Shown here piece by piece: positions 32,329-57,863 of a stretch of DNA of 64,000 nt. This DNA comes from Anaerolineaceae bacterium (GTDB taxonomy: Bacteria; Chloroflexota; Anaerolineae; Promineifilales; Promineifilaceae), in NCBI GenBank assembly GCA_002699125.1, contig PABI01000123.1, positions 62,001 through 126,000 on the forward strand. Reading direction: 5' to 3'. Position numbers and translations under genes: made by a program. Position 1 is the first letter of the stretch, and the number at the start of each line of letters is the position of its first letter. Under the pieces are notes generated by a model. That model worked only from the letters and a program-made list of their open reading frames with translations. It did no database searches and was not told where the DNA came from.

Positions 32329-32462
32329 AATCCCCTTACTCGACGGAAGGCAGAATTTTATTTTGGCACAAGATAAAAAATCTTGTTGAAGAGTAACATA
32401 GACGTAGTCAAAACGTCAACGCATCATAGAAAATATGTGTCCGGAAGAATTTTGGATAAAAG

Positions 32463-32512
32463 ACGAGGCCTGAGCCTGTCGAAGGCCGGCCTTCGACAGG
32501 CTCAGGCCTCGT
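32463..32512. repeat. Perfect 50-bp palindrome
   Basis: ACGAGGCCTGAGCCTGTCGAAGGCC|GGCCTTCGACAGGCTCAGGCCTCGT; 25-nt arms, no spacer. Confidence 0.95.
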
Positions 32513-32561
32513 GTCACTTTAGTGGTATATCAATTAAATCTGCCGTTTTGAGGCGCCGGTA

Positions 32562-34169: not shown

Positions 34170-34178
34170 AATTTTCGG

Positions 34179-36286: not shown

Positions 36287-37687
36287 TCAAGGCGAACAGC
36301 TTTCTCCTGGTGAAAGCAGCTGAATATTGCTTTCCAAGACCCAGCCTTGCAAGGTGGTATCATCAGCCGATTGCACGTTCAAGAAATCACTATTTACCGC
36401 ACAATTGCCCGGTTCATTGGCAGAACGAGAGGTCGTATCCAAAATAATGACTTCCTGACCCGCGGCGATGATTGTTTCGGCAACAGCGGTATCGCTGCAG
36501 CTGGCCAGCTGGTCATCCTGCCACAGAAAGGCGAATACGTCTGGCCTGATGCAGCCGCGGGCCAGCACAATGTCTGGCGGCGGGGTGTCGGTGGCAGCCA
36601 GGGTGGCAGAGGGCAGTGGTTCCAGCGTGGCGGTGGCGGCAACTGTGGCCGTGGCCTCAGGAACGGCCGTTACGACATCGGTTGGCGCAGGCAGTAAGGC
36701 AGGACTGTCTGTTTCTACCGGTACAACTTCGGCCGATGGGGCAACTTCGGGTACGGTCGTTGCCTCGGCGCTGTCCTCACGCGCATTAAAGGCCGGCAGC
36801 ACATAGAAAAAGAGAATCGCCAAAAGAACAAGCACCGTCACAATCAGTGAGGCAATCACCCAGAGAGGGATGCCAGACCGACTGCCAGCGACCGGCGCTG
36901 CGGCGGCAGTTGGCCGCACCTTACCGGGAATCTGGCCCACGTTGACGACAACGGCCGTTACATTATCATGCGTTTTGGCATTAATCGAAGCCTGCACCAA
37001 ATCTTCGGCTGCGGCCTGGGCTGATTTGCCGTGCAGCAGTTGATGAATCTCCTGAAAGTTGAGCGGATCGTGCAGGCCATCGGAGCAAAGCAGGAAAACA
37101 TCGTTGGAATAAATTTCGACGGGATGGGTCAGGTGAACTTCGATTTCTTCTTTGTTGCCCAGCACCTGCGTCACGACGTTGCGTAACTCATGGTTAGCGG
37201 CTTCTTGCGGCGTGAGCACGTTGGCCTCCACCTGTTTTTGCACCCAGGTGTCATCGCGCGTCAACCGCTTTAGCTGATCACCCATCAAAAAATAGGCGCG
37301 GGCATCGCCGACATGGGCGACGTATAGATAGCCGTTGTGGACAACGGCCGTTACCACCGTGCAGCCCATCTTGCCCCCGCCCCGCGTCTGAGACAGATCA
37401 AAAATCACCTGGTTGGCGGTGCGGATGGCCCGTTCCAGGGCAACCTCAATTTCTACTCCGGCCTGGCGATGGTCGTAAAACGCTTTGCTGATGATTTCCG
37501 TGGCTTTGTTGGCAGCCACGTCGCCCGCCTCTTGCCCACCCACGCCATCGGCCACGATGTACAGCGCGCCCAATTCGGTAGGCGTTTCCGTATGGCTCAC
37601 CCAATAGGCATCTTCATTGGCAGAGCGAACAGGTCCTTTGTCGCTTTTGGCTCCCACTAAATCAGGCATGAAGTTGTTCAATTGCAC
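36287..37687 (-). CDS. PP2C-family Ser/Thr phosphatase with TM and extracellular tail
   Basis: AKSDKGPVRSANEDAYW, LYIVADGVGGQEAGDVAA, LYVAHVGDARAY, DVFLLCSDGLHD, THDNVTAVVV; TM IPLWVIASLIVTVLVLLAILFFYVL. Confidence 0.95.
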   Translation of the reverse strand: MQLNNFMPDLVGAKSDKGPVRSANEDAYWVSHTETPTELGALYIVADGVGGQEAGDVAANKATEIISKAFYDHRQAGVEIEVALERAIRTANQVIFDLSQTRGGGKMGCTVVTAVVHNGYLYVAHVGDARAYFLMGDQLKRLTRDDTWVQKQVEANVLTPQEAANHELRNVVTQVLGNKEEIEVHLTHPVEIYSNDVFLLCSDGLHDPLNFQEIHQLLHGKSAQAAAEDLVQASINAKTHDNVTAVVVNVGQIPGKVRPTAAAAPVAGSRSGIPLWVIASLIVTVLVLLAILFFYVLPAFNAREDSAEATTVPEVAPSAEVVPVETDSPALLPAPTDVVTAVPEATATVAATATLEPLPSATLAATDTPPPDIVLARGCIRPDVFAFLWQDDQLASCSDTAVAETIIAAGQEVIILDTTSRSANEPGNCAVNSDFLNVQSADDTTLQGWVLESNIQLLSPGESCSP

Positions 37688-37695: not shown

Positions 37696-38799
37696 TCAGG
37701 CTTTGAGGGTGGTAAAGTGTAAGACGGTACGGCCCAGTTTGATTTGTGTGCCTTCTTCCAGTTCAATCTGGTCTTCCTTTTCCCAGGAATCCTGCCGGGC
37801 ATCATACATAAAAAGGCCGTTGGTGCTGTTTTGATCATTTGCGATATAACGGCCGTCTACCAACCGTACCCGCACATGCAAAGCCGACAAAGCCGTGTCG
37901 TTAATAAAAATATCGCTGTTTGGGTCGCGGCCAATGGTTGTTTCTGCCTTTAGCTCAAACTGCTCCCCTTCCCGTTCACCATTACCGATAACCAGCCAGG
38001 CAACGGTTTTTGGCTCGACATGCAGCACTTCTGTGGGTTCAATTTGGGGCTGCGGCCTTTCGGCCACGGTTGGGGGATAAAAATCATCCTCGTCCTCGCC
38101 AGGAAAACGAAAAGCAGGATGTCCCATTTCACGCATGTCGTCATCCATTAAGGTACGCTTAGACGGATCATCCGCTGGTGCCGGGGCATCATCAACAATC
38201 GTTGCATGGGGATCGCGCGACGGTTGCCCCTCATCAACCATTGTTGCCTTTGGCGCCGCAGAAAAAGCATCGTCTACCATTGTGGCATTGCTATCCAGCG
38301 GGGCTGGACGGCGTGGCTGTGGCGGCGTGGCATGAAACGGGGTTTGTTGCGGTTGGTTACGGCCGTAGCTCACCACCGGCTGTTTCGGCGTACGCCACAG
38401 ATCAAACACTGCCCCCAGGCCAATTCCCAACAGGCCGGCCACTGTTACCCACAAAGCCGGTAAAATCGTCACCTCAAACGCCCCGCTGTTTCCCCGCAGC
38501 TGCAACCATTTGAGCAAAAATACCAGCAGCCCGGCAATAGCGGCCACCACCAGCCCCCAATTGGCGTTGGTTTCCCAGGCAGGCTTCCACAGCGTGCTGG
38601 CCAACAGAAAAAGAGACACCAGTGCCGCAAGCGGCACAATAAAAAAGATAGGGTCCCCGCCGGCATCGGCATCCATAGCCAACTGCAAACCGCTCAGTTC
38701 ACTCTGGGGCATCCCCTCACAAGAAACGGCCACCCAGGGCAAAAAGAAGAGGAATAAGATCAAAATTGCTGCTGGGCCCGATATAACTTTTCCATTCAT
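37696..38799 (-). CDS. Membrane protein with C-terminal FHA domain and TxxD-repeat linker
   Basis: Several N-terminal TMs; linker ATMVDD..ATMVDE..ATIVDD..RTLMDDD; ETTIGRDPNSDIFINDTALSALHVRVRL...NSTNGLF FHA. Confidence 0.9.
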   Translation of the reverse strand: MNGKVISGPAAILILFLFFLPWVAVSCEGMPQSELSGLQLAMDADAGGDPIFFIVPLAALVSLFLLASTLWKPAWETNANWGLVVAAIAGLLVFLLKWLQLRGNSGAFEVTILPALWVTVAGLLGIGLGAVFDLWRTPKQPVVSYGRNQPQQTPFHATPPQPRRPAPLDSNATMVDDAFSAAPKATMVDEGQPSRDPHATIVDDAPAPADDPSKRTLMDDDMREMGHPAFRFPGEDEDDFYPPTVAERPQPQIEPTEVLHVEPKTVAWLVIGNGEREGEQFELKAETTIGRDPNSDIFINDTALSALHVRVRLVDGRYIANDQNSTNGLFMYDARQDSWEKEDQIELEEGTQIKLGRTVLHFTTLKA

Positions 38800-38846: not shown

Positions 38847-39641
38847 TTACCAGTCGTTTATCAGGGAGACGATGTCTGCTTTTACGGCCGTTTCCACCAC
38901 CAATGGCCCGTTTGCATCCCCCGTAGGCGACGTCATCAGCCAGCTATGCTCCTGGTCTTGCACCAAAGTAAAATCTTGCTTGGCCACGCTCTGGTCGGCC
39001 TGCTGCTTGAGCATTTGAAGGATAGAGACGTGGGGCGAACGGCTTAAGGTGTTGACTAACGCTGTAGCCGCTTCCCGGTTGGGCTGATGTTTGGTGAGAT
39101 GGGTAACGGCCGTATCCACCTCCCCCTCTCTGGCCCACTGTCGCACCTGCCCAAAATCGGTCACCTCCAACGAATAGGTACCATTTTTATGCGCCTTGTC
39201 TTCCCAGGAACACAGCTGCAAAACTTGTTCCACCATTTGGTCTTTTGTTGGAAGTAAAGTAAACAGATGGAGCACGTCGTCTGGCCGAGTATGGGCCACA
39301 AAATCATCGCCGCGAATATGGCCAAAATAACGCACCGGTAGATCGCCGTCTTCTTGCCAATGGTAAACAAAAACAGTCTGCGTGGCATAGGCGCAAATGC
39401 CAACGGCCGTCATCAACAAGTTATGTAAAGCCAGGCTGCCATCATCCTGCACCCGCGCCAGCTCTCTGGCACGCAAAGCCCGGCTGGCCACCGTCAGCGC
39501 CAGTTCCAGGCCATCGGGCGTTAAATTCCCCTGCGGATCGTTATCCAAGCCGGGAATTGAATCCACTTGTAGCAAGCGTAAAGTCAGCAGCAATTCCTCT
39601 CTGGAAAGAAGCAGGTTAATTGGCTCGTTTGAATTGTTCAT
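38847..39641 (-). CDS. Possible EspG-like ESX chaperone/secretion-associated protein
   Basis: LSREELLLTLRLLQVDSIPGL... and DDVLHLFTLLP pattern, size and position beside a WXG100 gene; similarity judged by eye only. Confidence 0.35.
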   Translation of the reverse strand: MNNSNEPINLLLSREELLLTLRLLQVDSIPGLDNDPQGNLTPDGLELALTVASRALRARELARVQDDGSLALHNLLMTAVGICAYATQTVFVYHWQEDGDLPVRYFGHIRGDDFVAHTRPDDVLHLFTLLPTKDQMVEQVLQLCSWEDKAHKNGTYSLEVTDFGQVRQWAREGEVDTAVTHLTKHQPNREAATALVNTLSRSPHVSILQMLKQQADQSVAKQDFTLVQDQEHSWLMTSPTGDANGPLVVETAVKADIVSLINDW

Positions 39642-39697: not shown

Positions 39698-40861
39698 TTA
39701 ATCATCGTCCCGGTTATTATTGATAGCTTTGCCCAACAAAGCCAAAAAGGGACTGGCCGCGGCCGCACCCAACCCAAGCCCAAGGTTCGATTGACTAGCC
39801 GGGGCACCAGGGGCCACTGCCGCCGCTGGCGCGGAAGCAGCCGGAATGCTGCCCGGCGCACCGCTGCCAGCACCACCACCCAGACCACCCAATGATTGAT
39901 AGCGCAGGCCACCCGCCTGAACAGATTCGCTGGGAACGGCCGTACCAAAACCCCCACCAAAGCTGCGCGGCACATTGCCTCGGCCAAACGGATCGCGGAT
40001 GTCGCTATTGGGCGATGCGCCGCTGCCGCTGCCACCCCCACCACTGCTCAAAGGCTCTGAACCGCCGCCGGACCCGCCACCGCTGCTGCCGCCACCCGAA
40101 AGCGCACTTTCAGTACCTCCGCCACCGGATGCACTGCCGCCACCAGAGGCACCGCCAGCTGTCACATCAGACAGCCAATCGCGGGGAATGCCATAATCAT
40201 TGTAATTATCACTCATGTAGCCATTGAGCGAATCGGTCACGCCAGAGAGCCAATCGCGGGGAATACCAAAATCGTTGCTATTTGCACCAAAGCCAGATGC
40301 GCCGGAACCAAACAGATCGCCACTGAATAGACCACCACCTAGCCCATTCCCCGGTAAAGTGCTGCCAAAAAATGAATCACTCAATGAGCCCGCTCCGCCA
40401 AATCCGGAGCCACCAAGTCCGCCACCAGCACCGCCGAATCCGCTACTGTTGATGAGCCCTTCCAGGCCGCCAAAACCTGCGGCTGCACCGCCTGCACCAA
40501 ATGCGCCGCCGACACCTGCTCCCGCTGCCGCGCCAACGCCGCCTGCACCGGCCGCAGCGCCACCATCTCGAAAAGAGGATGAGGCTTCTTCGTCAGCTTG
40601 CTGCATGACGTTGGCAATTTGGTTGGAGACCCGGTTGGCCTCACCCAACGCTTCGGCCAGCCGCTGCACGGCGGGCAAGATTTCGCTGTTCATCTCGTTA
40701 AAAAAGGCAGCAGAGCCTTTGCCAATCCAGCCACCGCCTTCTAAGGGGTTCATGGAGCCGCGAACGGCCGTTAACAACGCCTCAACTGCCTCTGAATGCT
40801 GCCCAAATTTCTCGGCAACCTGCTGCAAAGCTTCATAATCAACGCGAATAACTTCGGTCAT
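39698..40861 (-). CDS. Extended WXG100 protein with about 280-aa Gly/Ser-rich tail
   Basis: N-terminal YEALQQVAEKFGQHSEAVEALLTAVRGSMNPLEGGGWIGKGSAAFFNEMNSEILPAVQRLAEAL (W-I-G); GGAGGGLGGSGFGG tail; duplicated YGIPRDWLSxVT. Confidence 0.85.
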   Translation of the reverse strand: MTEVIRVDYEALQQVAEKFGQHSEAVEALLTAVRGSMNPLEGGGWIGKGSAAFFNEMNSEILPAVQRLAEALGEANRVSNQIANVMQQADEEASSSFRDGGAAAGAGGVGAAAGAGVGGAFGAGGAAAGFGGLEGLINSSGFGGAGGGLGGSGFGGAGSLSDSFFGSTLPGNGLGGGLFSGDLFGSGASGFGANSNDFGIPRDWLSGVTDSLNGYMSDNYNDYGIPRDWLSDVTAGGASGGGSASGGGGTESALSGGGSSGGGSGGGSEPLSSGGGGSGSGASPNSDIRDPFGRGNVPRSFGGGFGTAVPSESVQAGGLRYQSLGGLGGGAGSGAPGSIPAASAPAAAVAPGAPASQSNLGLGLGAAAASPFLALLGKAINNNRDDD

Positions 40862-41535
40862 GATTGGCCTCCATTACTAAATAAATCGCTACCTGACTCT
40901 GTGCGGACAATAAATTTAAGCGTGATGCTGCTGCGCTCTAGCTGGATGAGATCACCATGCTGCAACGGCCGTTTCACAGCCCCCACTTCTTCTACAGCGC
41001 CTTCCTCATTTTTTACCATCGTTGGATTGCGCGACAGGCTCTCGATGAAAAAACGGCCGTTCTGTTCCGTAATTTGCGCATGGCGGCGCGACACACGCAG
41101 CCCCGTTTGATACGATTCCAAATCCACGGCAATCCGGTCATCGTGCGGCTGATTTTTGTCTGGGCGGCCAATAATGGCCGGCAGCCAGTGCAGCTTGTAC
41201 ACCTTGCCGTTGGCCGTGTCGCGCAGATAGACGGCCTGGCTGGGGCGTTTGGTGCCGGGGGGGAGCGGCCGTTCCACTTCCAGCAGCTTCAGACGAGATT
41301 CATTGGCCACTTGCTGGGCCAACTGCACATCTTCTTGCAATGAAGTTTCCTCATTGTCAGCCGGAACCAAACGGTAATCGGCCGAACTATCGCTTAAATA
41401 TTCCAGCTCCTGAAACTCCTGCAAAATGGCATCGACCAATTCCGCTGGTTTCAGATTGGGCAGCGATTTGGCCCACTGAGCCGGTTTTTCAAAAACATCT
41501 ATGCGCAAATCAAGCCGTTTCTGGTTTGTGCTCAT
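40858..41535 (-). CDS. FHA-domain protein with possible YukD/EsaB ubiquitin-like N-terminus
   Basis: AIIGRPDKN...GLRVSRRHAQITEQNGRFFIESLSRNPTMVK FHA; N-terminal LDLRIDVFEKPAQW...LLEVERPLPPGTKRP; ATGA-type overlap with the downstream WXG100 gene. Confidence 0.75.
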   Translation of the reverse strand: MSTNQKRLDLRIDVFEKPAQWAKSLPNLKPAELVDAILQEFQELEYLSDSSADYRLVPADNEETSLQEDVQLAQQVANESRLKLLEVERPLPPGTKRPSQAVYLRDTANGKVYKLHWLPAIIGRPDKNQPHDDRIAVDLESYQTGLRVSRRHAQITEQNGRFFIESLSRNPTMVKNEEGAVEEVGAVKRPLQHGDLIQLERSSITLKFIVRTESGSDLFSNGGQS

Positions 41536-41554
41536 CGTTTTGCTCCTGGTAAAG

Positions 41555-41610
41555 AACCTCCCGCAGGTTTCGTAAACGGCCATCAAATTGGCCGGAACCT
41601 GCGGGAGGTT
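41555..41610. other. Hairpin downstream of the EccC-like gene
   Basis: AACCTCCCGCAGGTT / AACCTGCGGGAGGTT perfect 15-bp arms, 26-nt loop. Confidence 0.8.
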
Positions 41611-41615: not shown

Positions 41616-44600
41616 TTATTTTTTATCGGCTTCTTCCTGCGGTAGTTCCGGGAAGTAGCCTTCGGCTGCGTCAAAAATCTCTTTGGCCGACGTGCCAAAA
41701 AGCGATAAATCATCCATGCCCGTTTCGGCTTTTAAGGCATCTTCCACAAATTTTCGCAGCACGGCCGTATCGTCCCAGTTAGCAATTTCGTCACCCTGAC
41801 CATTCTTCTGCTTGTAAATGATCCGTTTTAGCAAATCAATCACCGGTTTGGTTTGGCTGTCCACCGCAGCGCCATCGGCACCAGCGCCCGGCAGCGGCTG
41901 CGACCACTCCGCTTTGGCCGCTTTTTTGTGCTGCTGGCAAATCTTGTTGACCCAGGTATCCAGCGCCTGGGCCACGCGCGCTTCATCTTCGTCCATATCG
42001 CCGGTTAAAGCTTCACCGATGCCTTCGCCTTGATAAGGCGAGGCCACTTGCAGCAAGGTGGCATAGCCGGAGCGCACAATGAAGCCGCGGCCGGTGTTTA
42101 ACTCTTTCTCGCCGCGCAGCGCCGGGGGCGTTTTGATGACGCCCAGGGTGTTGATCGATTGGCCCGTGCGCAGACCAATCCCGTAATTAGACGCTTTAAT
42201 GCGCTGGCGCAGGGCGCTGCTGCTGTCTAAACTACCGGCAACGATAAAATGTAAACCTTCACGGCCGTAGCGCCGGGCCATCGCCGCCAGTTCCCGCGGC
42301 ACCTCGCGCATCCGCTCCGTTTCTTCCACAAAATCATCAAAATTGTCGATGATGATGAACAATTCGCGATTGTTATCCTCACGCGTCAGGGCTTCGCACT
42401 CATTTTTGAGGGTAGGCAGCAATGCTTCCAGCTCTTCGGCTTCGTGAACGGCCGTTACCACATGAGGCAAATCGGTTAAACTTTTCTCTCCGCCGTACAG
42501 CACAAATCGGCTTTGCAAATCGACCAGCAGGAGCATAATCTGCTCCGGCGAATGGCGGTAGGTCAGCGACAGCACCCAGTTGTAGAGGGCAGTCGTTTTG
42601 CCGGACAGCGGTGGGCCGACCACGGCAAAGTGCGGCCCCATCCGTTTCAAGTCAAACAAAGCCGGCTGGAGCATCACATTTTGCCCCAGCACGCCTTGCA
42701 GCCGTTTCGTTCGCCTGTCGCCAACTGCCTGCATCATGTCGATGAGCGGCACCAAATCAGGCAAAATCTCGATCCCGTCCGGCAGGTTGCTGCCAAAGGC
42801 CGGCGTGGCCGCCATCTGTTCCTGCATGTGTTGGGCCATCAGGCGCAGTTCGTCGCCTTCGGTGCGATTGTCACGCCCGTCCAGTTCATCAAAAATACCA
42901 ACCGGTTGGGCGGCGTGGAACAGCAACGGCCGTCGGCCCACGCGAATGTAGCCCCGCCCGGCCACGTCATCAATCTCAATCGCGCCGCGCCCCACGATGT
43001 CCATGTAGCGGTCCGGGTTGCCCTGCTTAAACGTGATCCGCTCGCCAAACAAATTGTACAGCTTACTGGGCATACTGTTGGGCGCATTGCCCGTCACCAC
43101 AAAGGAGATGCCCACGCTGAGCGAGCGACGCACCAGCGGCATAACGGTGTTTTCCAGCAAGGTTTCGTAGTTTTCGCGCAGTTCGGCAATGTTGTCGATG
43201 GCCACCAAAACGGCCGGAACCGGCTCTTTAGGATGCCGTTCGTTGTATTCGTACAAATTGCTGGCGTCGGCACTGCTAAACAGGTTTTGCCGCTCATCCA
43301 CCATGCGGCCGAGTTTGTCCAGCAGGCGCTGCAACCGTTCCTCAAACGCTTCCTCGTCGGAGTAAATAACCGCGCCAACGTGGGGCAGGTCTTCCAGATT
43401 GCGGAAGTTGCGCCCGCCCAAGTCCAGTACGTACACATGCAGCTCCGCCGGGGAATGAGTGCTCACCAAAGAGGTAACCAGGGTACGAATAAAGGAGGTT
43501 TTGCCCCAGCCGGAATCGCCAAAAACGGCCAGATGGCCCCGGCTCAAATCAAAGCGCAGCGGGCCCTGCCATGCCTCCACCGGGTTATCCAACAACCCAG
43601 CCACCGGGCGCATCGCCTCTTCATGCCAGTTCACGCCGGGCCACAGGTGTTCCGTGTCGCCATTGAGCCAGTCGGTAACAGCCGTTGTCAAAGTAAACGT
43701 CACATTCCGCTGTGCATCAAACAAGGGCGACTGCAAGCTAAACTGCTCCGGCAAGAAGCCCGGCCACGGCTTGCGCGCCATCACACCGTTAACCAGTTGC
43801 GATGTGATGGAAACGGCCGCATCAAAAAACTTGGGCACGTCTTCATTTGTTTCAGCCGCTATGACTCTCTCACGCTCCGGCCATTCCACTGGCGCGTCCC
43901 GCTCATCAGGCTGGTTTTCGCCCGTCCACGATACCTGGATCAACTCCAGGTTTTCGTTGCCCACCTGCAAATAGCCGCGACCCGGCATCCCATTGGGCAG
44001 CAAAGCCGCATCGGGCCGGCGCAGCATCTCGCGGCTGGTGTCCAGTTCCTCCACCCGCAGGCAAAGGCGCAGCTTGATGTTGGCCCGCATCTGGTCCGTC
44101 ACGCCCTTGGGCCGCTGCGACGCCAGAATCAGGTTCACCCCCTGCGCCCGGCCTACGCGAGTGATGCTCTCCAGCTCGGCGCGGTATTCGGGATTATCGT
44201 CAATCATCTCCGAATATTCGTCAATAATCACAAAGAGGTGCGGATACGATTCGCCGGTCAGGTGCAGCCCTTTGCTGCGGTACTCTACGATGTCCTTCGT
44301 GCCTGTTTCGGCATTCAGCCGCTGGCGTCGACGCATTTCGGCATTGATGGCGGCAAACATGCGGTTAACGGCCGCTTTGTTCAAATTCGTCACAATATCG
44401 ACGCAGTGCGGCAGCTTCCGGAACGGCTGGAAGGCCCCACCGCCCTTGTAATCAACCAACACAAAGTTCAAAATGTCGGGCGAATAGTTCAGCGCCAGCC
44501 CCACAATCATCGTCATCAGCAGCTCAGATTTACCGGAACCGGTACCGCCAGCGATTAAGCCATGCACACCGTCCCGCTTGGCCTCAAAGCGCAGCTCCCG

Positions 44601-47600
44601 CTGCCGGTTGCCGGAGGCGATCCCCAGGACCACCCGTAGCCAATCGGCCTCTTCTGCCGAGCCGTTTTTGGCCCACACGCGGCCAGTTTCCCGCTTCAAC
44701 TCATCCAGGAAACTCTTTTCCTGGCTAATCTTGAGAATCTCCGACTGCACCTGTCGATACGAGGACGTTTTAGGCAGGGCGTCGATGCGCAGCGGCGGCT
44801 GGCCTGACCACACTTTGGCCCCTAGCTTATCCATCTGCTCACCCAGCGCGCGAATCGAGCGCGCTTCATCTTGTAACTGACCCTGCTCATCAAAACGGCC
44901 TGCGCCGATGGCAATCTGGAATTCCAGCGGCTGCCGCCCCACGCGCACGTAACCGCGCCCGGCAATTTCATCCACTTCGGTGACGTTGCCGCCCACCACA
45001 ATGCGGTACTGGCTGTTATCAGACAGCCGCAGCGTGAGTCGCTCGGTGAACAGGCTGTACAGCTTGCTAGACAGCTCGTTGGTGCGCGTGGCCGAAATGA
45101 CAAAATGCAAGCCGTACGCTTTGGCCTGTCGCACCAGCAGCACCAACGCCTCTAGCAGATTGTCGTCTTCGGCCGTTTGGTTGACGTTGCCAAAGGATTC
45201 AATATATTCGGCAAAATTATCAATCACCACCAAAATCGCCGGTTCGGCGCGATCCGGGTATTGCACATTAAATTCATACAAGGTAGAGACACCAACTTCA
45301 CTAAAGAGGCGCTTGCGATGGTCCACAATGTCGTTTAGTTCGCGCAAAAGCTGCTGAATGCGCTCTTCGTAGCCGCGTTCATCGGGCATGATGATGGTGC
45401 CTACGTGGGGCAGGGCTTTGAGCACTTCCAGGTTGCGCCCGCCCAGGTCCAGCACGTGGGCCTGGAACTCATCGGGTGAGTGGGTCGCCGCCAGGCTAAC
45501 GATGAGGGTGCGCATGAAGGTGGTTTTACCCCAGCCCGACGCGCCAAAGAGGACAAAATGGCCTTTGGTGAGATCAACAATCAGGGGCAGCTGGCTGGCG
45601 TTGTAGGGATCATCCGCCAAGCCGACGATGGCGCGCATGGCGGTGTCTTTCCAGTTCATACCGTACCAGCTCGCCTGGCCATCTTGCCAATCTTGGATGA
45701 ACGGGTTGAGTTGAGACGGCCGTTCCTTCCGCCCTAACGTCATCAACGGCACATGCTTTTCTTGCATGTACGCTTCTACCAAAGGTGAAGTCAATGTGAG
45801 CTTAGTGGTTAAGAATGGCGGCCAGGGCGTGCGCGGCCGTTCCTGGGCCAGCACCTCATTGGCCAGACGAACCGCCATATCATAAAACTTTGGCTTCTGC
45901 CCGCCTTCCCCACTTTCGACGTCATCAACCTCTTCGCCTGTCCAGGCAATCTGGATCAATTCAATATTCTCGTTGCCAATCTGCAAATAGCCCCGCCCCG
46001 GCATCCCGCTGGGCAAAAAAGCCGCATCGGAACGGCGCAGCATTTCGCGGCTGGTGTCAATCCCTTCTACACGCAAACAAATGCGGAACTTGATGTTGGC
46101 CCGCATCTGATCCGACACACCGGTAGGCCGCTGCGAAGCTAGCAGCAAATTAACGCCCTGCGCCCGGCCCACCCGCGTGATGCTGTCCAATTCATCCTTG
46201 AACTCGGGATTGTCCGTAATCATCTCGGCATACTCATCAATAATGATGAAGAGGTGCGGATAAGGCTCACGGCTCAAGTGATAGCCCTTGGCGCGATATT
46301 CCACAATGTCTTTGGTCTCGGTGTCGGCATTGAGCTTTTGGCGGCGCTGCATCTCGGCATTGATCGCGGTGAACATGCGCTTAACGGCCGATTTGTTCAA
46401 GTTCGTCACAATATCGACACAGTGCGGCAGCTCCCAAAACGGTTGGAACGCGCCGCCACCCTTGTAATCGACCAGCACAAAGTTCAGCACCGACGGATCG
46501 TAGTCCAGCGCCAGGCCCACAATCAGCGTCATTAACAGCTCAGACTTACCCGAGCCGGTGCCACCGGCAATCATGCCGTGCACGCCGTCGTTTTTGGCTT
46601 CCAGGTGCATCTCGCGCAGCCGGTTGCCGGAAATGACGCCCATCGTCACCCGCAGCCAGTCGGCCTGCTTGGGGTCCAGGCTGTTTTGCCAGCTTTGCAC
46701 CATTCGCTGGCGCAAATGGCGCAAAAAGTTATCATCAACCGGCATTTCCATCTGCCGCGCCAAAATTTGCTTGAACAAAATGGCTTTGGGCAGGGCGTCT
46801 ACCCGAATCGGCTCTTTGTATTCGCGGCTGGCGCTGGCGATGAAGTCGTTCATGCTTTGAGCGTACTGCTCCAGCTCCTCACGCTCGTTGGCCAGCTCTT
46901 CACCCCCTTCACGCCGCAAATCGACCGGCTGGGCAATTTGCATGCTTAGGGGCAGGTGACCATGCTTGATGTAACCTCGTCCCGGCACATCGCCAATGTC
47001 GGCCACATGGGCACCCAAAATGGCCCGATAATCGGTGCGATCGGCCAGTTTTAGCGTAATTCGTTCGGTGAACAGGCTGAACAGCTGGTTCGACAAGACG
47101 CTGAGCCGCGTGGCGGTAATGACAAAATGAATGCCGTACGGCTTGGCCTGACGGGCCAGCGCCACAAATTTATCCAGGACGCTTTCTACATTGTCGTTGC
47201 CGTTATCAAACGTCTCGTTGAACTCAATGAAGTTGTCGATGGCTACCAGGATGGCGGGCAGGGTGGCCTGCGGGTGCGCGTCGTTGTAGTGGTAGATGTC
47301 GGACAGGCCCTCGTTGCTGAGTTTGTTTTTGCGGTCCTCTACCAGATCGTCCAGCTCGCGCAGCAGCTGCTCGACACGCTCTTCATACCCTTCAGCATCG
47401 GGGATAATGACGGAACCGACGTGAGGCAGGTTTTCCAACACGCCCAGGTTACGGCCGCCTAAATCCAGCAGGTAGACCCACAAATCATCGGGCGAATGGG
47501 TGGCCGTCAAACTCACAACCAGGGAGCGAATAAACGTCGTTTTGCCCCAGCCGGACGCGCCAAAAATCACTACGTGCCCGCGCCGCAGATCAACCACCAG

Positions 47601-50348
47601 AGGCAGCTGCTGCGCCGCATGGGGATTGTCTACCAGCCCCACCACCGGGCGCATGGCGTATTCGTCCCAATCCAAACGATCCAGCCAGCCGTTTTCGCCA
47701 TTGAGCCATTTGTTGACGGCCGGATTGAGGGTAAGGGTGGTGTCGGGCACGCGTCCCAGCATAATTTTGTCTACGTCGGCCAAATATTCCTGGGAGGTTA
47801 CGGCCGTTGCCTTCGGATCACGTGAAACAAGCAGTTGGGACAGGGCCAGGTAAGCGGGCAAAAATTCGGGCCAGGGAGCGCGCTGCTTCTCCACGCCGTT
47901 GTCCCGCGCCATTTTGTCTAGCGAGGTGATGATCGCTTTGTACAGTTCGGGCGGCTCCTGATCAGATTCCGGATCGTAGCTTTCCAAACGGTCCGGCCAG
48001 ATCACGTTGGCCCGGGGCGATTGATCGGGATCGATATATTTTTCGCCGGTGTAGGCCACCTGAACCAGTTCAATCTCTTCGTTGCCCACCTGCAAATAGC
48101 CCCGGCCAGGCAAACCGCTGGGCAAAAAGGCCGCGTCATTGCGCCGCAGCATTTCCCGGCTTTCTCCTGGGGTTTCTACGCGAAGACAAATCCTGAATTT
48201 AATATTGGAACGCATCTGGTCAGTGACGCCAGACGGCCGTTGCGCCGCCAAAATCAATGAGACGCCCTGCGCCCGGCCCACCCGCGTGATACTTTCCAGT
48301 TCAGATTTATATTCGGAACGGTCGGCAATCATCTCGGCAAACTCATCAATAATGATGAACAAATAGGGATAAGGCTTGTGGGTCTGGTGGAAACCCTGTT
48401 GGCGATAGTCCACAATGTTTTTTGTTTTGGTTTCCACATTCAAAGCTTGCCGCCGCTGCATCTCCGACTTGATCGCCGTGAACATGCGCGTCACCCCTTC
48501 CCCGGCCAGGTTGGTGATGATATCGACACAGTGCGGCAAATCCTGAAACTCTTTAAAGGCACCGCCGCCCTTGTAATCCACCAACACAAAATTCAGCACC
48601 GTCGGCGAATACGTCACCGCCATGCCGGCAATAAGCGAAATCAGCAGTTCCGACTTACCGGAGCCGGTACTGCCGGCCACCATGCCATGCACGCCATCCC
48701 GCTTGGCGGAAAAGACCAGCGTACGGTCTTTATTGCCCGACATGCGCCCAATTTTGACGCGCAGCCAGTTGGCGTATTTGGGCAGTTCGCTGTCCTGCCA
48801 TTTTAGCCAGGTGTCGGCTTCCAAAGCACGCAGCGAGTCGTAGCCCATCATCGGCAAGAAGGAGACAGCGTTGGTAAGGTTAGCCCCTGAACTTTCACGC
48901 ACCTGCATTGTCGCCAGGTTTTTGGCCAGGTGCACCATCGTTTCTGGTTTAGCAATGTAGTCGGCAGTGCCAACGTAGCGGTAAGAGTTAACGCCCACTT
49001 CGGCATAGCGAAAATGGAGCTTCAGATTGCGATTCAGGGTGCTGTTGGTGGCTGGTGTGGTCTTTTGAATTTCGATAACTGCCTGACAGCCGCTGGGCAC
49101 TTTGCTTCGTTCCGGTACCAGGAAGATTACGGCCGCTCCCAAAGCCGCCCCTTCCTCCAGCAAAATAGAAATGGCGGCATCTGCTTCCAAATCACTCAGC
49201 GGCGACTTTTCGCCTTCTTGAATATCCAGCAAATCGACAACCAGCAGTAAAAATGGCTGAGTTGGATCGCTGGCGCTTCTCTCGTCATCTCGGTCATTTA
49301 GCCGAATTTTGCGCGTGGCCAGCGTTTTACGAATACCTTCCAGGAACTGCTCAACCGCTCCTTCATCATCGTCATCAAAGGCGCGCTCTTTTTCATCGCT
49401 CTCGGCCACCTCTTCAACAAAACAGCGGTATTCTGTTTGTTCATCTCCCTGGCTGTGAGGCAGATAATCGGTCCAGGCCCACTCATCTTTACTGGAAGCC
49501 AGCACGTAAAGCCGGGCATCCATCGGCGCATGGTAAACCACGTAATGCCCCAGCAAACCGCGGGTAAATTCATACACTGCCTGGCGGTCTTGTGGATCGC
49601 CGGCAATGCCTAAAGCATGGGTCACCGGCGTGGGTGGGCTGGATTTTTCCTCGCCTTCCTCTTCCTCGCCAAACGTTTCTTCTTTGGGGCGTGGCTGGCG
49701 CAAGTTGATGATGACCGGGATGTCTGAAACGTAGCGGGAGTCCTCTTCCAACTTCATGGCGGCCCGCACCTGTTCATCTTCAAAATTTTCCACATCCCCT
49801 AAAACGTAGGTCACGGTCGAGGGCAAGGTGCCGATACCCAGGCGGACCGCACCAAAATCATCATCCTCGACGCGCCGTTCCCACAGACGGGCTTCAGTGC
49901 GCAGGGTTCGTTCTGCCTTTTCCACTTCCAGGCGGGCGCTACGGACAATGCGAAAGGTGACGGAGCGGTCGGGGTAGTTGTAGCGGTAGAAGCGGCGCTG
50001 CTGGTCATGGTAGCCATTCATTTCCTTGTTCAGCACCACCAGGCGATCATCATACGCTTTTTTAATTTCCTCAAGCTGCTTTTTCTCTTTGAGGTAGGTG
50101 TATAGGGCAAAAACGGTTGAGGCAACGACGGACAACGCCATCGGAATTAAGAGCCAGGGACTACGGCCGCTTCCGCCCAAGGTAGCAATGAGCACATAGC
50201 CAATAATGGTGATGAGCGGCAGCCCAACCTGGATTAGCTGGGTATAACCACCTTCTTCTTTTTCGGGCGGGCTGGGGATCTCAATCTCATCAAAGGGTAG
50301 CTCGGGCTGTATTCTTGGCGGGCGGTCAATGTAGATAGGTTGGGTCAT
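41616..50348 (-). CDS. EccC/EssC-like FtsK/SpoIIIE-family type VII secretion ATPase with seven P-loop domains
   Basis: N-terminal RPPRIQPELPFDEIEIPSPP plus two TMs; Walker A GSTGSGKS, GASGWGKT, GGTGSGKS, GASGWGKT, GGTGSGKS, GDSGWGKT, GPPLSGKT; FVLVDYKGGGAF repeated three times. Confidence 0.95.
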   Translation of the reverse strand: MTQPIYIDRPPRIQPELPFDEIEIPSPPEKEEGGYTQLIQVGLPLITIIGYVLIATLGGSGRSPWLLIPMALSVVASTVFALYTYLKEKKQLEEIKKAYDDRLVVLNKEMNGYHDQQRRFYRYNYPDRSVTFRIVRSARLEVEKAERTLRTEARLWERRVEDDDFGAVRLGIGTLPSTVTYVLGDVENFEDEQVRAAMKLEEDSRYVSDIPVIINLRQPRPKEETFGEEEEGEEKSSPPTPVTHALGIAGDPQDRQAVYEFTRGLLGHYVVYHAPMDARLYVLASSKDEWAWTDYLPHSQGDEQTEYRCFVEEVAESDEKERAFDDDDEGAVEQFLEGIRKTLATRKIRLNDRDDERSASDPTQPFLLLVVDLLDIQEGEKSPLSDLEADAAISILLEEGAALGAAVIFLVPERSKVPSGCQAVIEIQKTTPATNSTLNRNLKLHFRYAEVGVNSYRYVGTADYIAKPETMVHLAKNLATMQVRESSGANLTNAVSFLPMMGYDSLRALEADTWLKWQDSELPKYANWLRVKIGRMSGNKDRTLVFSAKRDGVHGMVAGSTGSGKSELLISLIAGMAVTYSPTVLNFVLVDYKGGGAFKEFQDLPHCVDIITNLAGEGVTRMFTAIKSEMQRRQALNVETKTKNIVDYRQQGFHQTHKPYPYLFIIIDEFAEMIADRSEYKSELESITRVGRAQGVSLILAAQRPSGVTDQMRSNIKFRICLRVETPGESREMLRRNDAAFLPSGLPGRGYLQVGNEEIELVQVAYTGEKYIDPDQSPRANVIWPDRLESYDPESDQEPPELYKAIITSLDKMARDNGVEKQRAPWPEFLPAYLALSQLLVSRDPKATAVTSQEYLADVDKIMLGRVPDTTLTLNPAVNKWLNGENGWLDRLDWDEYAMRPVVGLVDNPHAAQQLPLVVDLRRGHVVIFGASGWGKTTFIRSLVVSLTATHSPDDLWVYLLDLGGRNLGVLENLPHVGSVIIPDAEGYEERVEQLLRELDDLVEDRKNKLSNEGLSDIYHYNDAHPQATLPAILVAIDNFIEFNETFDNGNDNVESVLDKFVALARQAKPYGIHFVITATRLSVLSNQLFSLFTERITLKLADRTDYRAILGAHVADIGDVPGRGYIKHGHLPLSMQIAQPVDLRREGGEELANEREELEQYAQSMNDFIASASREYKEPIRVDALPKAILFKQILARQMEMPVDDNFLRHLRQRMVQSWQNSLDPKQADWLRVTMGVISGNRLREMHLEAKNDGVHGMIAGGTGSGKSELLMTLIVGLALDYDPSVLNFVLVDYKGGGAFQPFWELPHCVDIVTNLNKSAVKRMFTAINAEMQRRQKLNADTETKDIVEYRAKGYHLSREPYPHLFIIIDEYAEMITDNPEFKDELDSITRVGRAQGVNLLLASQRPTGVSDQMRANIKFRICLRVEGIDTSREMLRRSDAAFLPSGMPGRGYLQIGNENIELIQIAWTGEEVDDVESGEGGQKPKFYDMAVRLANEVLAQERPRTPWPPFLTTKLTLTSPLVEAYMQEKHVPLMTLGRKERPSQLNPFIQDWQDGQASWYGMNWKDTAMRAIVGLADDPYNASQLPLIVDLTKGHFVLFGASGWGKTTFMRTLIVSLAATHSPDEFQAHVLDLGGRNLEVLKALPHVGTIIMPDERGYEERIQQLLRELNDIVDHRKRLFSEVGVSTLYEFNVQYPDRAEPAILVVIDNFAEYIESFGNVNQTAEDDNLLEALVLLVRQAKAYGLHFVISATRTNELSSKLYSLFTERLTLRLSDNSQYRIVVGGNVTEVDEIAGRGYVRVGRQPLEFQIAIGAGRFDEQGQLQDEARSIRALGEQMDKLGAKVWSGQPPLRIDALPKTSSYRQVQSEILKISQEKSFLDELKRETGRVWAKNGSAEEADWLRVVLGIASGNRQRELRFEAKRDGVHGLIAGGTGSGKSELLMTMIVGLALNYSPDILNFVLVDYKGGGAFQPFRKLPHCVDIVTNLNKAAVNRMFAAINAEMRRRQRLNAETGTKDIVEYRSKGLHLTGESYPHLFVIIDEYSEMIDDNPEYRAELESITRVGRAQGVNLILASQRPKGVTDQMRANIKLRLCLRVEELDTSREMLRRPDAALLPNGMPGRGYLQVGNENLELIQVSWTGENQPDERDAPVEWPERERVIAAETNEDVPKFFDAAVSITSQLVNGVMARKPWPGFLPEQFSLQSPLFDAQRNVTFTLTTAVTDWLNGDTEHLWPGVNWHEEAMRPVAGLLDNPVEAWQGPLRFDLSRGHLAVFGDSGWGKTSFIRTLVTSLVSTHSPAELHVYVLDLGGRNFRNLEDLPHVGAVIYSDEEAFEERLQRLLDKLGRMVDERQNLFSSADASNLYEYNERHPKEPVPAVLVAIDNIAELRENYETLLENTVMPLVRRSLSVGISFVVTGNAPNSMPSKLYNLFGERITFKQGNPDRYMDIVGRGAIEIDDVAGRGYIRVGRRPLLFHAAQPVGIFDELDGRDNRTEGDELRLMAQHMQEQMAATPAFGSNLPDGIEILPDLVPLIDMMQAVGDRRTKRLQGVLGQNVMLQPALFDLKRMGPHFAVVGPPLSGKTTALYNWVLSLTYRHSPEQIMLLLVDLQSRFVLYGGEKSLTDLPHVVTAVHEAEELEALLPTLKNECEALTREDNNRELFIIIDNFDDFVEETERMREVPRELAAMARRYGREGLHFIVAGSLDSSSALRQRIKASNYGIGLRTGQSINTLGVIKTPPALRGEKELNTGRGFIVRSGYATLLQVASPYQGEGIGEALTGDMDEDEARVAQALDTWVNKICQQHKKAAKAEWSQPLPGAGADGAAVDSQTKPVIDLLKRIIYKQKNGQGDEIANWDDTAVLRKFVEDALKAETGMDDLSLFGTSAKEIFDAAEGYFPELPQEEADKK

Positions 50349-50722: not shown

Positions 50723-51808
50723 ATGAAACAAGTGTGCCTTTTGTGTGAGCGCGTTTCCCCCGACAATAATTTGTATTGCCAGGAAACCTACTGCCCAGCC
50801 GAGATGTCGCCCAATATTTTGGATTATGGTGAATGGTTGGGTGACATCGAAATTGTCAAGCCGGTTATGACCTTGCGTTCGGCCGTTTTGTATGAAGCCA
50901 CTCACCAAAAGAAAACTGTCTTTTTAAAGGTTGCCCATCCCGGCGAAGAAAATAAAGAGCGCCTGAAGCGGGAAGCTGACTTTCTAAAAAATATGCAGCT
51001 GCAAAAAAAGCAGCACAAATTTTTACCGGTTTTGCTGCCGCCCTATGCCAGCACCACCATTAAAGAGGATGCTTATGGCAAAGCGATGTTGCAGGGGCAT
51101 CTGCTCTATTTTTACTTGTTTGAGCATGTTGAAGGCGAGCCTTTGCGGGATGTGCTCACCAAAAACCCGCAGCTCTGGATTAACCACGTAGGTTGGCTAA
51201 TGATTAGTTTGGCAACGGCCGTTAACTTTCTCCACGCCAATAACTTTTACCATTTGGGCATCAGTCCTGACATTGTGCTGGTACAGTTTGATGATGAACC
51301 ACACGTTCCACGTATATTGCTGTTTGATCTGGGCGTGATGAGCGATGCCAACACCTTAAGCCACCATTGGCACCACTTCTTTGTGCCACCTGCCTATACG
51401 GCCCCGGAACTGTTGAACAGTTCTGGTGTTCGCGTCAGCCACGCCACCGATGTTTATGGTCTGGGGCTGACGCTGTATGAGCTTCTGGTAGGCCAACCCG
51501 CTTACAAATATAAACTGCACAGCGATCAGGAAGTGTATTGGGCTGTGCAAAACAACCGCCGCATCCACATGAATCGCATTGAGGACGTCAAAAAGGTAGC
51601 CCAAATCGCATTGCAGGCCACGGCTCCGGAAAAATCGCAGCGGCACCCGGATACGGCCGTTTTCATCAATGAGCTAAAAACCTACTTTGGTGCCGTGCCC
51701 GGCCCCAAGCCCAGCCGCTGGCCCAGCCTTAACACCATCTTGCTCATTATTGCCGGCATTCTGGCGGTTGCCTTTGTCATTGCCCTTGCCGTTTCCGTAA
51801 CCGTGTAA
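50723..51808 (+). CDS. Zinc-ribbon pseudokinase with C-terminal TM (EssB-like architecture)
   Basis: CLLCERVSPDNNLYCQETYC; kinase fold with VFLKVAHPG; HRD replaced by YHLGISPDIVLV; LLFDLGV; C-terminal TM LNTILLIIAGILAVAFVIALAVSVTV. Confidence 0.8.
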   Translation: MKQVCLLCERVSPDNNLYCQETYCPAEMSPNILDYGEWLGDIEIVKPVMTLRSAVLYEATHQKKTVFLKVAHPGEENKERLKREADFLKNMQLQKKQHKFLPVLLPPYASTTIKEDAYGKAMLQGHLLYFYLFEHVEGEPLRDVLTKNPQLWINHVGWLMISLATAVNFLHANNFYHLGISPDIVLVQFDDEPHVPRILLFDLGVMSDANTLSHHWHHFFVPPAYTAPELLNSSGVRVSHATDVYGLGLTLYELLVGQPAYKYKLHSDQEVYWAVQNNRRIHMNRIEDVKKVAQIALQATAPEKSQRHPDTAVFINELKTYFGAVPGPKPSRWPSLNTILLIIAGILAVAFVIALAVSVTV

Positions 51809-52227: not shown

Positions 52228-52560
52228 TTAAAAAATTCCGCCAAACAGATCGCCCAATGAGCTCACCATATTATTGACCTGCTCATCGGCACGGTCCATC
52301 ACGTCAATGGCGTTGTTGATATTTTTACTGAAAACATTGATACCATCACCAATTTTGCCAACGCCGGGCATCATAATGCTTGAAACTTCTTCAACAAAAG
52401 CATCGGCTCCCTTGCCAACCCAAACGCCGTCCATAACCTGCTGCACCATGGCCTGCATGGGGCTGTAAGCCTGCTCCTGTACAACATTAAACTGCTGCAT
52501 AAGCTGGGATAAGACATTTTCTACAACTTTGCGCGCAAAACGAATTAGTGCACCAATCAT
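52228..52560 (-). CDS. WXG100-like small protein
   Basis: 110 aa, QQVMDGVWVGKGADAFVEEVSSIMMPGVGKI (W-V-G turn). Confidence 0.8.
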   Translation of the reverse strand: MIGALIRFARKVVENVLSQLMQQFNVVQEQAYSPMQAMVQQVMDGVWVGKGADAFVEEVSSIMMPGVGKIGDGINVFSKNINNAIDVMDRADEQVNNMVSSLGDLFGGIF

Positions 52561-52629: not shown

Positions 52630-52920
52630 TTAATACATACGCTCGGTAGATGTATCGGCGCTTCTCATATCTTCCATGGCTTTGTTGATGTCTTCAGCTA
52701 ATTCCTGAAATTTATCGGTAAGCCGGGAAATTGCCGGACACAACTTGCCACGAATCGCCTCGGTAAAGGCCGTGCCGCCCCGCCCCAACAATGCCCCATC
52801 TTCCATTTCATTAGCTACGTTTTGCATAGCTTGCATGGTGTCTTGAAGCTGCTCAACCCCTTGAAGGAAGGTTTTGTTCATATCTTCCATCAATCCATAA
52901 TCCATCTTAATTTCAGACAT
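52630..52920 (-). CDS. WXG100-like small protein with LLG in place of WXG
   Basis: 96 aa, NVANEMEDGALLGRGGTAFTEAIRGKLCPAISRLTDKF. Confidence 0.75.
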   Translation of the reverse strand: MSEIKMDYGLMEDMNKTFLQGVEQLQDTMQAMQNVANEMEDGALLGRGGTAFTEAIRGKLCPAISRLTDKFQELAEDINKAMEDMRSADTSTERMY

Positions 52921-53044: not shown

Positions 53045-53344
53045 TTAGCTGGCTCGGAATGGGGAAGATGCTTCTTCCTCTGCCTGTTTTACAGTTTGCA
53101 CAATTTGCTTTGTTACCCGACTGGCCTCATCCAAAGCCTCCTGCAAACGTTGCGAAGCGGGTAATACTTCACTTTGCATTTCAGAAAAGAAGGAATCTGA
53201 ACCACGACCGATCCACCCTCCGTTTTGCAGTGGATCCATTGCGCCGCGAACTTTTTGCAGCATCTGCTGGATGGCCTGTGATTGATTAGCAAATTGATTT
53301 GCTAAATTCTCAAGCCGGTCATAATCTGCCCGAATCTCATCCAT
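53045..53344 (-). CDS. WXG100 protein
   Basis: 99 aa, QKVRGAMDPLQNGGWIGRGSDSFFSEMQSEVLPASQRLQEALDEASRV. Confidence 0.9.
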   Translation of the reverse strand: MDEIRADYDRLENLANQFANQSQAIQQMLQKVRGAMDPLQNGGWIGRGSDSFFSEMQSEVLPASQRLQEALDEASRVTKQIVQTVKQAEEEASSPFRAS

Positions 53345-53750
53345 TATCTATTTTTCCTTTGCGGCTGGTGAGTTCACCATACCGCCTCAGTTGGCTTGGT
53401 CAACAGACCATCAGAACGTGAGTAATTGACAAATAGTATAGTTGACTTGAAGGTTTGATGACTATATTGTATTGATATATTGAACTGCAAAGTTTTATAC
53501 AATCTGGGTCAGATAGAATTGATAGAATTTTACTGGTTTCCTCTGGACACTCTACGGGTAACAGTGTAAAAAAGTAAAAATCATCTGTCAAGACATTATG
53601 CCGGTTGGTTTCTATGTAAAAGTCAAACAGCTTTTTGATCTTGCATCTGGCTTTTACTAAGGTAAATCACAAGATACGGTGCTTTCTTTTCAAACTCCTT
53701 TTGTGATTTGCTTCATCTCGTCAAACAACTTGCTCAGAGGTGCACACCTG

Positions 53751-55964
53751 ATGACAAAGAAGCGTATTGGTTTTTTCTTTCTGATAGGATGGCTGATTTT
53801 TTTACGGCCGTTCACCACCCATGCCCAAACCAATGGCGCCATCATCATTAACCATGTGGTGCCCACAGAAGGGGAGGAAAGCCTGGGGCTGGACGTTTTT
53901 TTTACGCTGACCGACAGCAACGGCCGTCCCCAACCCCAACCAGAAATTGAATCCGCCACCATTCAGCTGCTGGGCGGCAACAGCCAGCCCGTTCCCGTCC
54001 AGATTGCCGATCCGCAAACCCCCGTCTTCATCGCCCTGCTATTGGATACCAGCGGCAGTATGCAAGACGTGATAGAGCAGGTAAGAACGGCCGCAAAATC
54101 AGCCATCGACAACGCTCCGCCCACGGCCCACTTCGCCGTCATTCCGTTTAACGAAACCAGCGTCCCCATTCAAGATTTCACCGACAACCACATTCGCGTC
54201 AAAGATGTTATTGATACCGTCCAGGCCATTCCCAACCGGGGCACCTGCCTCTATGATTCGGTCTTTGACGCTATTCAACGCCTGGATCAGCAGATCAGCA
54301 GCCCGCAGGAACGGCGCGCCATCATTCTTTTTACCGATGGACAAGACCAGTTGACCGTGGACAGCCCCGAACCTTGCAGCACCCATACTTATAATGAAGT
54401 GATTAGCGCGGCACGGCCGTCGGCCGACATTTCCACCATTACCCCCATCCACACCATCGGCATTTACAACCAATCAGAAGCCGAGCTAAATGTGGGGGAA
54501 CTGCGCAACATGGCTGCCGAAACCTCAGCTTTTTCGGCCATTGGCAACCAGTCCAACCTGAACAGTTTATTTCAAGAAATTATTGCCGGTCTAAACAGCC
54601 AACTGTTAGCCCGTGGGCAGGTTTTCCCGCAGCAAGGCGAAAATCAGGCCGTGCTTTCCATTAAATTACGCAATAATGATACACCTATCAGCGCCACCTT
54701 CAACTTCTTCTCCAGCAAAAATTATGATCTACTCCCGCCGCCAGTAGCCACCGCTATCTCCAATTTTCAATACAATGCGGCCACCAACGTGTACACCCTC
54801 TCGTTAAGCGTGGGCAGCGCCGAAACCGTTCGCCAGGTTATCATCAACGTCTGGGACGTACGCGGTGGCACCCAGGTTGCCGGCGACCAGATTTTTGAAG
54901 ACCCGGATTCGACACTAATTGTAGAAATCGACGGCAGCAATCTTCAGGCCGAGCGGGAGTACAGTATCCATGTCCAGGCGCTCAACCAGGAAGATTTTCT
55001 GATTCAGAATGAAGAGGGCGAAACGCTTTTAGCTGAACGCGAATTTACCCATAGTCCTCCACTCTCTGTCCCCTTTACGATTCAAGCAGTAACCCCAGAT
55101 TTTGAAAACGGCCTCTTTTATATTGATTTGGATGTGCCGGAAGCCGGCCGCGTACAAACGTATGAGGGATTCATTGTCGATGACAGCACCGGCAGCAAAA
55201 TCCACGATTTTGGCCCGACCCTTTTTACCGGCGAGCGTCTCCAGGAGCAGCTGCCCGAGGCCATTCGATCGGCCGAAGTACCCGGCACCTACCGGGTCAC
55301 GGTTTATCTGCTCACGGCCGATCAGCAGCGCTCCGAAAATACCTATGACGATTTCAAGCCAATCCCGCCTGAACCACCGGGGTTTTTCACGAGGGCGTTT
55401 ACTGCGCTCACAGCTAATCCCATCTACCTGGGCATCATTGCGCTCATCGTTGTAAGCCTGGGCGGCGTGCTGTTTTTCAGCAGTAGGAAAAAGAAGGAGC
55501 AGGAACCGGTCATTGTCCGACCTCCGGTAGACAAATCAATTGTCTGGTCCGAGGCAGACTACGATCGGAGCAAGCTGATGCCCCGGCAAAATGTATCGCC
55601 CGACGAGGAAGAATTCCTGACACCCCTGGCTGCCAAACCGGCTGCAACCGGCACAGGCGCGCGGCTGCGTCTAAAAGTGGTGCAAACCACTGGCGCAACG
55701 CTAGACAAAATTATAGACACATTTCCCTTTACGATTGGGCGCGAAGGCAGCGATCTTGACATCGGTGGCGATCCACGCATATCACGGAAACATGTAAAGA
55801 TTTCCTGGCAGGACGACGGCTTTTTTATAACCGATCTTGGTGGGGTCAACGGCACGATTTTAGGCAACCAAAAGCTGCCAGCTAATACCCCGACGCCTTT
55901 AGGCAAGCACAAGACCGTGCGCCTCTCTTCACAAACACATCTGGAAGTCGAACACTTGGCATGA
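53751..55964 (+). CDS. VWA-domain protein with TM and cytoplasmic FHA domain
   Basis: ALLLDTSGSMQDVIEQ (MIDAS DxSGS); TM NPIYLGIIALIVVSLGGVLFF; FTIGREGSDLDIGGDPRISRKHVKISW. Confidence 0.92.
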   Translation: MTKKRIGFFFLIGWLIFLRPFTTHAQTNGAIIINHVVPTEGEESLGLDVFFTLTDSNGRPQPQPEIESATIQLLGGNSQPVPVQIADPQTPVFIALLLDTSGSMQDVIEQVRTAAKSAIDNAPPTAHFAVIPFNETSVPIQDFTDNHIRVKDVIDTVQAIPNRGTCLYDSVFDAIQRLDQQISSPQERRAIILFTDGQDQLTVDSPEPCSTHTYNEVISAARPSADISTITPIHTIGIYNQSEAELNVGELRNMAAETSAFSAIGNQSNLNSLFQEIIAGLNSQLLARGQVFPQQGENQAVLSIKLRNNDTPISATFNFFSSKNYDLLPPPVATAISNFQYNAATNVYTLSLSVGSAETVRQVIINVWDVRGGTQVAGDQIFEDPDSTLIVEIDGSNLQAEREYSIHVQALNQEDFLIQNEEGETLLAEREFTHSPPLSVPFTIQAVTPDFENGLFYIDLDVPEAGRVQTYEGFIVDDSTGSKIHDFGPTLFTGERLQEQLPEAIRSAEVPGTYRVTVYLLTADQQRSENTYDDFKPIPPEPPGFFTRAFTALTANPIYLGIIALIVVSLGGVLFFSSRKKKEQEPVIVRPPVDKSIVWSEADYDRSKLMPRQNVSPDEEEFLTPLAAKPAATGTGARLRLKVVQTTGATLDKIIDTFPFTIGREGSDLDIGGDPRISRKHVKISWQDDGFFITDLGGVNGTILGNQKLPANTPTPLGKHKTVRLSSQTHLEVEHLA

Positions 55965-57862: not shown

Positions 57863-57863
57863 A

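Follow-up and report, generated by a model that had tools for sequence, protein, structure and literature searches.

ATPases of the EccC/EssC type, such as T. curvata EccC (4nh0), EccC5 of ESX-5 and B. subtilis YukB, belong to type VII secretion systems (T7SS) and are the closest described relatives of the protein considered here. They are about 1,250-1,550 aa long and combine transmembrane (TM) helices and a D0 domain with three P-loop domains, D1 to D3. Their published pattern is an active D1 next to degenerate, ATP-binding D2 and D3 domains (PMC6954902; PMC11154593). The DUF of EccC5 is also a degenerate ATPase domain (PMC11154593). Eight new T7SS subtypes, T7SSc-T7SSj, have recently been defined, and the main text of that survey gives their ATPases four NTPase domains (Garrett and Palmer, 2024; PMC11217815). 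Which of the EccC rings work, and how D1 couples to D2 and D3, are the questions at stake. The word Chloroflexota does not occur in the main text of the subtype survey (PMC11217815), and in the open-licence literature searched the T7SS of this phylum figures only through mentions of WXG100 proteins; the same literature yielded no description of an EccC with more than one D1-D2 pair. Here we describe such a protein, encoded in a stretch of 64,000 nucleotides from an Anaerolineaceae bacterium of the phylum Chloroflexota (hereafter the window, whose positions are used throughout).

Domain architecture of the giant ATPase

A single unbroken open reading frame at 41616..50348 (-) encodes an EccC/EssC-type ATPase of 2,910 aa with the layout TM-D0-(A-B)x3-C, as seen from the reading frame, Pfam, NCBIfam and module parsing. 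Pfam recognizes seven FtsK_SpoIIIE stretches (E 1.4e-177) and NCBIfam returns EssC with E = 0 and 1,535 bits, EccCa and EccCb also scoring above cut-off, so that the EccC identity proposed in a preliminary description made from the letters of the DNA is upheld. Matches over full domains also rule out chance motif matches. The N-terminal part (48810..50348, (-)) is conserved in the alignment and comprises two TM helices, visible as two hydrophobic stretches, and a degenerate D0/DUF that is comparable to the DUF of EccC5 (PMC11154593) and has GDPQDRQAV at the P-loop position; the EccCa model matches from residue 25.

The seven Walker A motifs of the preliminary description were all recovered at the same coordinates and start at residues 559, 930, 1262, 1602, 1934, 2277 and 2578. 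They mark, on the (-) strand, the modules A1 (47892..48809; D1-like, GSTGSGKS, IIIDE, arginine finger), B1 (46782..47696; D2-like, GASGWGKT, IDN), A2 (45840..46697; GGTGSGKS, IIIDE, arginine finger), B2 (44766..45677; GASGWGKT, IDN), A3 (43770..44681; GGTGSGKS, VIIDE, arginine finger), B3 (42756..43655; GDSGWGKT, IDN) and C (41838..42752; D3-like, GPPLSGKT, IDN). All are supported by module comparison, the A and B modules also by alignment of catalytic residues, and B1, A2 and B2 additionally by Foldseek. The Walker B sequences likewise read as first noted, IIIDE or VIIDE in A modules and IDN in B and C. Identity within the window giant is 61-69% among A modules and 47-51% among B modules, against about 21-26% between types (A-B, A-C, B-C), which establishes two alternating repeat types and a distinct C. 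Linkers are also type-specific: PWPxxL follows every A, an LPK-type motif precedes the next A in most cases, and the linker ahead of C is shorter and of IxxLP type. The protein is an EccC/EssC-type T7SS ATPase with A-B-A-B-A-B-C after D0. Since the D0 of EccC counts as an ATPase domain, though a degenerate one, the giant has eight NTPase-fold domains instead of the usual four; the preliminary count of seven P-loop domains stands, but it had omitted D0.

Catalytic residues and predicted fold

Among 23 giants, the Walker A lysine, the Walker B aspartate and glutamate and the GR-motif arginine are each 100% conserved in A1, A2 and A3 (69/69 modules). This arginine aligns with the arginine finger, presumably R616 of TcEccC. 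The P-loop lysine is kept in 100, 100 and 87% of B1, B2 and B3, respectively, and D-N replaces the Walker B D-E in 91% of B modules. Three further arginines, R621, R1324 and R1996, one per A position, are invariant in a seven-giant alignment and align with what we take to be R543 of TcEccC (offset checked on E593). R543 is reportedly an autoinhibitory pocket residue, a role said to have been assigned by Rosenberg et al. in 2015. At the level of aligned residues, the giant thus matches the published contrast between D1 and D2/D3, with D1-D2 repeated, and the alignment agrees with the earlier assignment of A as intact and D1-like, B as degenerate and D2-like, and C as D3-like. Intact motifs are no proof of hydrolysis, given the very low activity of EccC ATPase fragments studied in isolation (PMC6954902). 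The intact A-module motifs nevertheless support three potentially active motors in each chain, as the preliminary description had suggested. That description also raised the possibility that the geometry of the hexamer might be altered.

A structural model, one of the checks suggested at the outset, was computed by AlphaFold for the B1-A2-B2 monomer from 17 aligned sequences (pLDDT 84.7, pTM 0.73). Its top Foldseek match is the cytoplasmic part of T. curvata EccC, the D1-D2-D3 crystal structure 4nh0 (1,015 columns, E 4.4e-45, TM 0.55/0.62, rmsd 8.5). The B-A-B stretch is accordingly modelled in the manner of D1-D2-D3, with an inter-domain geometry that a TM of 0.62 and an rmsd of 8.5 for a monomer model leave uncertain.

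The giant therefore resembles EccC/EssC in its TM helices and D0, in its catalytically intact D1-type modules and its D2/D3 types with a P-loop and a degenerate Walker B, in its scores with the family models and in its predicted fold. It differs in carrying the A-B (D1-D2) pair three times, in having seven P-loop domains instead of three and in its length of about 2,900 aa. An EccC/EssC protein in the strict sense has exactly D0-D1-D2-D3; all 23 complete giants have D0 plus ABABABC, so that they form a variant of the family and not canonical members. FtsK/SpoIIIE DNA translocases have the motor fold and motifs of the A modules but, unlike the giant, one motor per chain and no T7SS locus.

Distribution and reality of the layout

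Genome contigs were scanned with the seven-giant alignment, and two genome surveys were added. Many Chloroflexota carry the giant, among them Herpetosiphon aurantiacus DSM 785, H. geysericola, H. giganteus, Candidatus Viridilinea, Oscillochloris, Caldilineales and Anaerolineales bins, as well as Ardenticatenaceae, where the gene is cut by a contig end. Giant-type reading frames of 2,870-3,019 aa were found in twelve genomes in one survey and thirteen in the other, the window's genome being in both. The order ABABABC recurs exactly in each of the 23 complete homologues parsed, which excludes chance. An assembly artefact might be feared, as the window comes from a draft genome (188 contigs, 8.05 Mb, completeness 96.1, contamination 8.39%). 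However, the modules differ in sequence, A2 and A3 being just 73% identical at the DNA level in the window, and the identical layout appears in many independent assemblies and on the closed chromosome of H. aurantiacus DSM 785 (L068, CP000875.1). An artefact, named in the preliminary description as a possible refutation, is hardly credible and was rejected.

The three-domain Chloroflexota homologues nearest the giants are mostly 1,420-1,830 aa long. Four three-domain EccCs of the phylum (L075, L086, L087 and L090; 1,509-1,551 aa) have a single A-B-C, share the gene neighbourhood of the giants and lie nearest clade 1 of the giants in trees. No intact gene with two pairs (ABABC) was found in the Chloroflexota genome surveys or among the parsed homologues; four reading frames with two A modules (G574, G633, G570 and G545) either have the third A on a separate contig or lie at a contig start, and look truncated rather than truly intermediate. 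Reading frames with more than one strong A module were absent from the 150 Actinomycetota and 200 Bacillota genomes sampled. The window's genome contains no second EccC-like gene, its other FtsK-family matches being reading frames of 437, 744 and 912 aa. Two homologues stand apart: a clade 1 giant (L081) in an assembly labelled Candidatus Melainabacteria, explained either by wrong binning of the contig or by gene transfer from Chloroflexota, and a highly divergent ABABABC giant from another genome of the phylum (L048), 38% identical to that of the window and of unsure placement in trees.

Duplication history

The final trees left out L048 on account of its very long branches. A modules group with A and B modules with B, and the opposite outcome, which would have spoken against the preliminary description, did not appear. 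In each of two giant clades the modules are related as (A1,(A2,A3)) and ((B1,B2),B3) with high support. The position of A1 outside (A2,A3) and of B3 outside (B1,B2) indicates that the unit duplicated in the second expansion was an internal B-A, and the trees fit a passage from A-B-C to A-B-A-B-C followed by copying of that unit. The proposal that the D1-D2 pair had been triplicated ahead of D3 is thus right as to three pairs followed by C; a simple triplication gives way to this two-step history, which apparently took place twice.

A single origin with strict positional orthology is rejected, both for A1 (p 1.4e-4) and for B3 (p 1.1e-5) grouped across the two clades, and positional orthology of A2 + A3 and of B1 + B2 between the clades is likewise rejected. 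Monophyly of the giants is rejected by the single-copy N-terminus (p 0.0095) and by the concatenated single-copy regions (AU p 0.0047), whose tree places three-domain EccCs as sister to the clade 1 giants with 99/95 support. With the giants rejected as one clade and no positional orthologues shared, two independent triplications are favoured on the sequence data. One ancient triplication, later homogenized by gene conversion, would leave giant monophyly standing, as do the A-only, B-only and C-only trees (p 0.23, 0.088 and 0.15), and clade 2 bears signs of recent conversion between A2 and A3: these pair species by species, with an 89-bp identical run in L073 and 89% aa identity in L074. These observations make a homogenized single origin possible. 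Yet it would have to accommodate the verdict of the single-copy regions, the three-domain sisters of clade 1 and a positional orthology of A1, B1, B2 and B3 that is stable inside each clade, and we regard it as unlikely, though not negligible.

The surrounding secretion locus

WXG100 genes are encoded together with the FtsK/SpoIIIE ATPase at the window locus, the combination that defines a T7SS, and the complement of T7SS genes around the giant is complete. Directly beyond the 3' end of the giant gene, 40858..41586 (-) encodes a YukD/EsaB-like ubiquitin fold fused to FHA (Pfam; 242 aa as listed, with the true start probably at the ATG of residue 18), which neighbours most EccC loci; Pfam detects FHA in 15/15 members of this family and YukD in 7/15. 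Beyond it lie a WXG100 protein of 387 aa with a long Gly/Ser-rich C-terminus (39698..40861, (-); Pfam WXG100 3.9e-14, NCBIfam 8.2e-21), a likely T7SS substrate, and a 264-aa protein (38847..39641, (-)) predicted by AlphaFold (pLDDT 87.5) and Foldseek (EspG3 4w4j, E 4.1e-13, TM 0.73) to be an EspG-fold chaperone, which escapes both Pfam and NCBIfam. A membrane protein of 367 aa with a C-terminal FHA found by domain search (37696..38799, (-)) and a PP2C-type phosphatase recognized by Pfam and NCBIfam (36287..37687, (-)) follow.

On the other side, 50723..51808 (+) encodes a 361-aa protein with a Zn-ribbon-like N-terminus, a pseudokinase domain (Pkinase 3.7e-18) and a C-terminal TM helix. Its 16 aligned members all lack the HRD catalytic Asp and have four invariant N-terminal Cys, and the gene adjoins most giant and short EccC genes. 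The topology is like that of EssB/TshM; EssB structures do not appear in the top 60 PDB matches to the pseudokinase profile, so that the resemblance to EssB is confined to topology. Next come three small genes, a weak WXG100-like match (52228..52560, (-); 3.5e-05, below the Pfam cut-off) and two WXG100 proteins (52630..52920, (-), Pfam 2.6e-09; 53045..53344, (-), Pfam 7.3e-14), then a VWA-FHA protein of 761 aa (53679..55964, (+)) that recurs at many EccC loci, giant and short alike. YukD-FHA, WXG100 proteins, the 361-aa pseudokinase and VWA-FHA form a core set common to giant and three-domain EccC loci.

Seven Ser/Thr kinase genes flank the locus at 26213-36251 (-) and 55961-59819 (+), and several of them are joined to beta-propeller repeats or to SH3, CBM9 or zinc carboxypeptidase domains. 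Elsewhere in the window are three M42 aminopeptidase genes in tandem (5930-7033, 7110-8147 and 8222-9217, (+)), with a reading frame of comparable length downstream (9350-10366, (+)), and a long gene without a Pfam match at 1e-5 (14403-16748, (+)) adjoining another with CBM96 only (16787-20581, (+)).

Measured against the main text of the subtype survey, the locus comes nearest in gene content to T7SSc (Garrett and Palmer, 2024; PMC11217815), with which it shares WXG100, a YukD-like protein, an ATPase lacking an N-terminal FHA, a kinase-like TM protein, a vWA protein, a PPM phosphatase and an EspG-like chaperone. In the terms of that text, it differs in the fusion of YukD to FHA (the YukD-like protein of T7SSc has no FHA, and the fusion is not among the features described there), in the eight NTPase domains of its ATPase as opposed to four, and in its kinase-like protein: the conserved active site of TscD is set against a pseudokinase with a Zn-ribbon-like N-terminus, a comparison made with the 16 members of the 361-aa protein; separate Pkinase genes lie downstream.

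Possible mode of action

By analogy with other T7SS, six copies of the giant would probably ring a membrane pore. On the precedent of EccC and FtsK, D0 would lie beneath the membrane and the other domains would form a stack of rings lining the path of the substrate. In place of one hydrolysing ring (D1) and two ATP-holding regulatory rings (D2 and D3), the stack would contain three A rings that hydrolyse ATP and, behind each of them, a B ring that holds ATP and couples. Most probably, WXG100-type substrates would dock at the single terminal C ring, which would recognize and receive them with the assistance of the EspG-fold chaperone, and the A rings would then move the helical bundle from one to the next, so that pulling would be longer, stronger or more processive. 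Judging from sequence, model and analogy, we consider it rather probable that the giant is a Chloroflexota T7SS motor with three hydrolysing A rings acting in series on WXG100 substrates.

Some A rings could instead be structural. The extra pairs might mainly lengthen the cytoplasmic stack as an antechamber or spacer, hydrolysis being required in one ring only; half of the inserted modules are indeed of the B type, without the catalytic Glu, and all complete homologues seen have exactly three pairs, as expected of an element that keeps length. A spacer, though, needs no catalytic residues, and those checked are kept in all A modules of highly diverged species, which argues against pure spacers and makes this explanation unlikely, if still worth weighing. 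Substrate selectivity is a further candidate, each A pocket being blocked by a linker and freed by a different WXG100 protein. Three small WXG100 genes adjoin the window gene and the equivalent of the pocket arginine is conserved in every A, but three-domain loci (L075, L082, L087, L088 and L093) also have several WXG100 genes. The number of substrates thus does not follow that of the modules; a scheme with one WXG100 for each A-B pair is rejected, and selectivity appears decidedly improbable as the role of the extra pairs. Beyond the serial motor itself, the locus may represent a distinct Chloroflexota T7SS subtype in which the motor evolved twice independently into a stack of eight rings (D0 plus seven), three of them hydrolysing in series on one substrate; this larger proposal is tentative and somewhat less likely than not.

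Implications

Only D1-D2 is repeated, D0 and D3 remain single, and the catalytic residues are found in the D1 copies and not in the D2 copies. This selective repetition points to the A-B pair as the functional unit, and the arrival at exactly three pairs in what appear to be two independent expansions suggests that the number is constrained. Culturable hosts that carry the giant exist in Herpetosiphon. If the serial motor is real, a protein translocase would here have its powered rings present several times within one chain.
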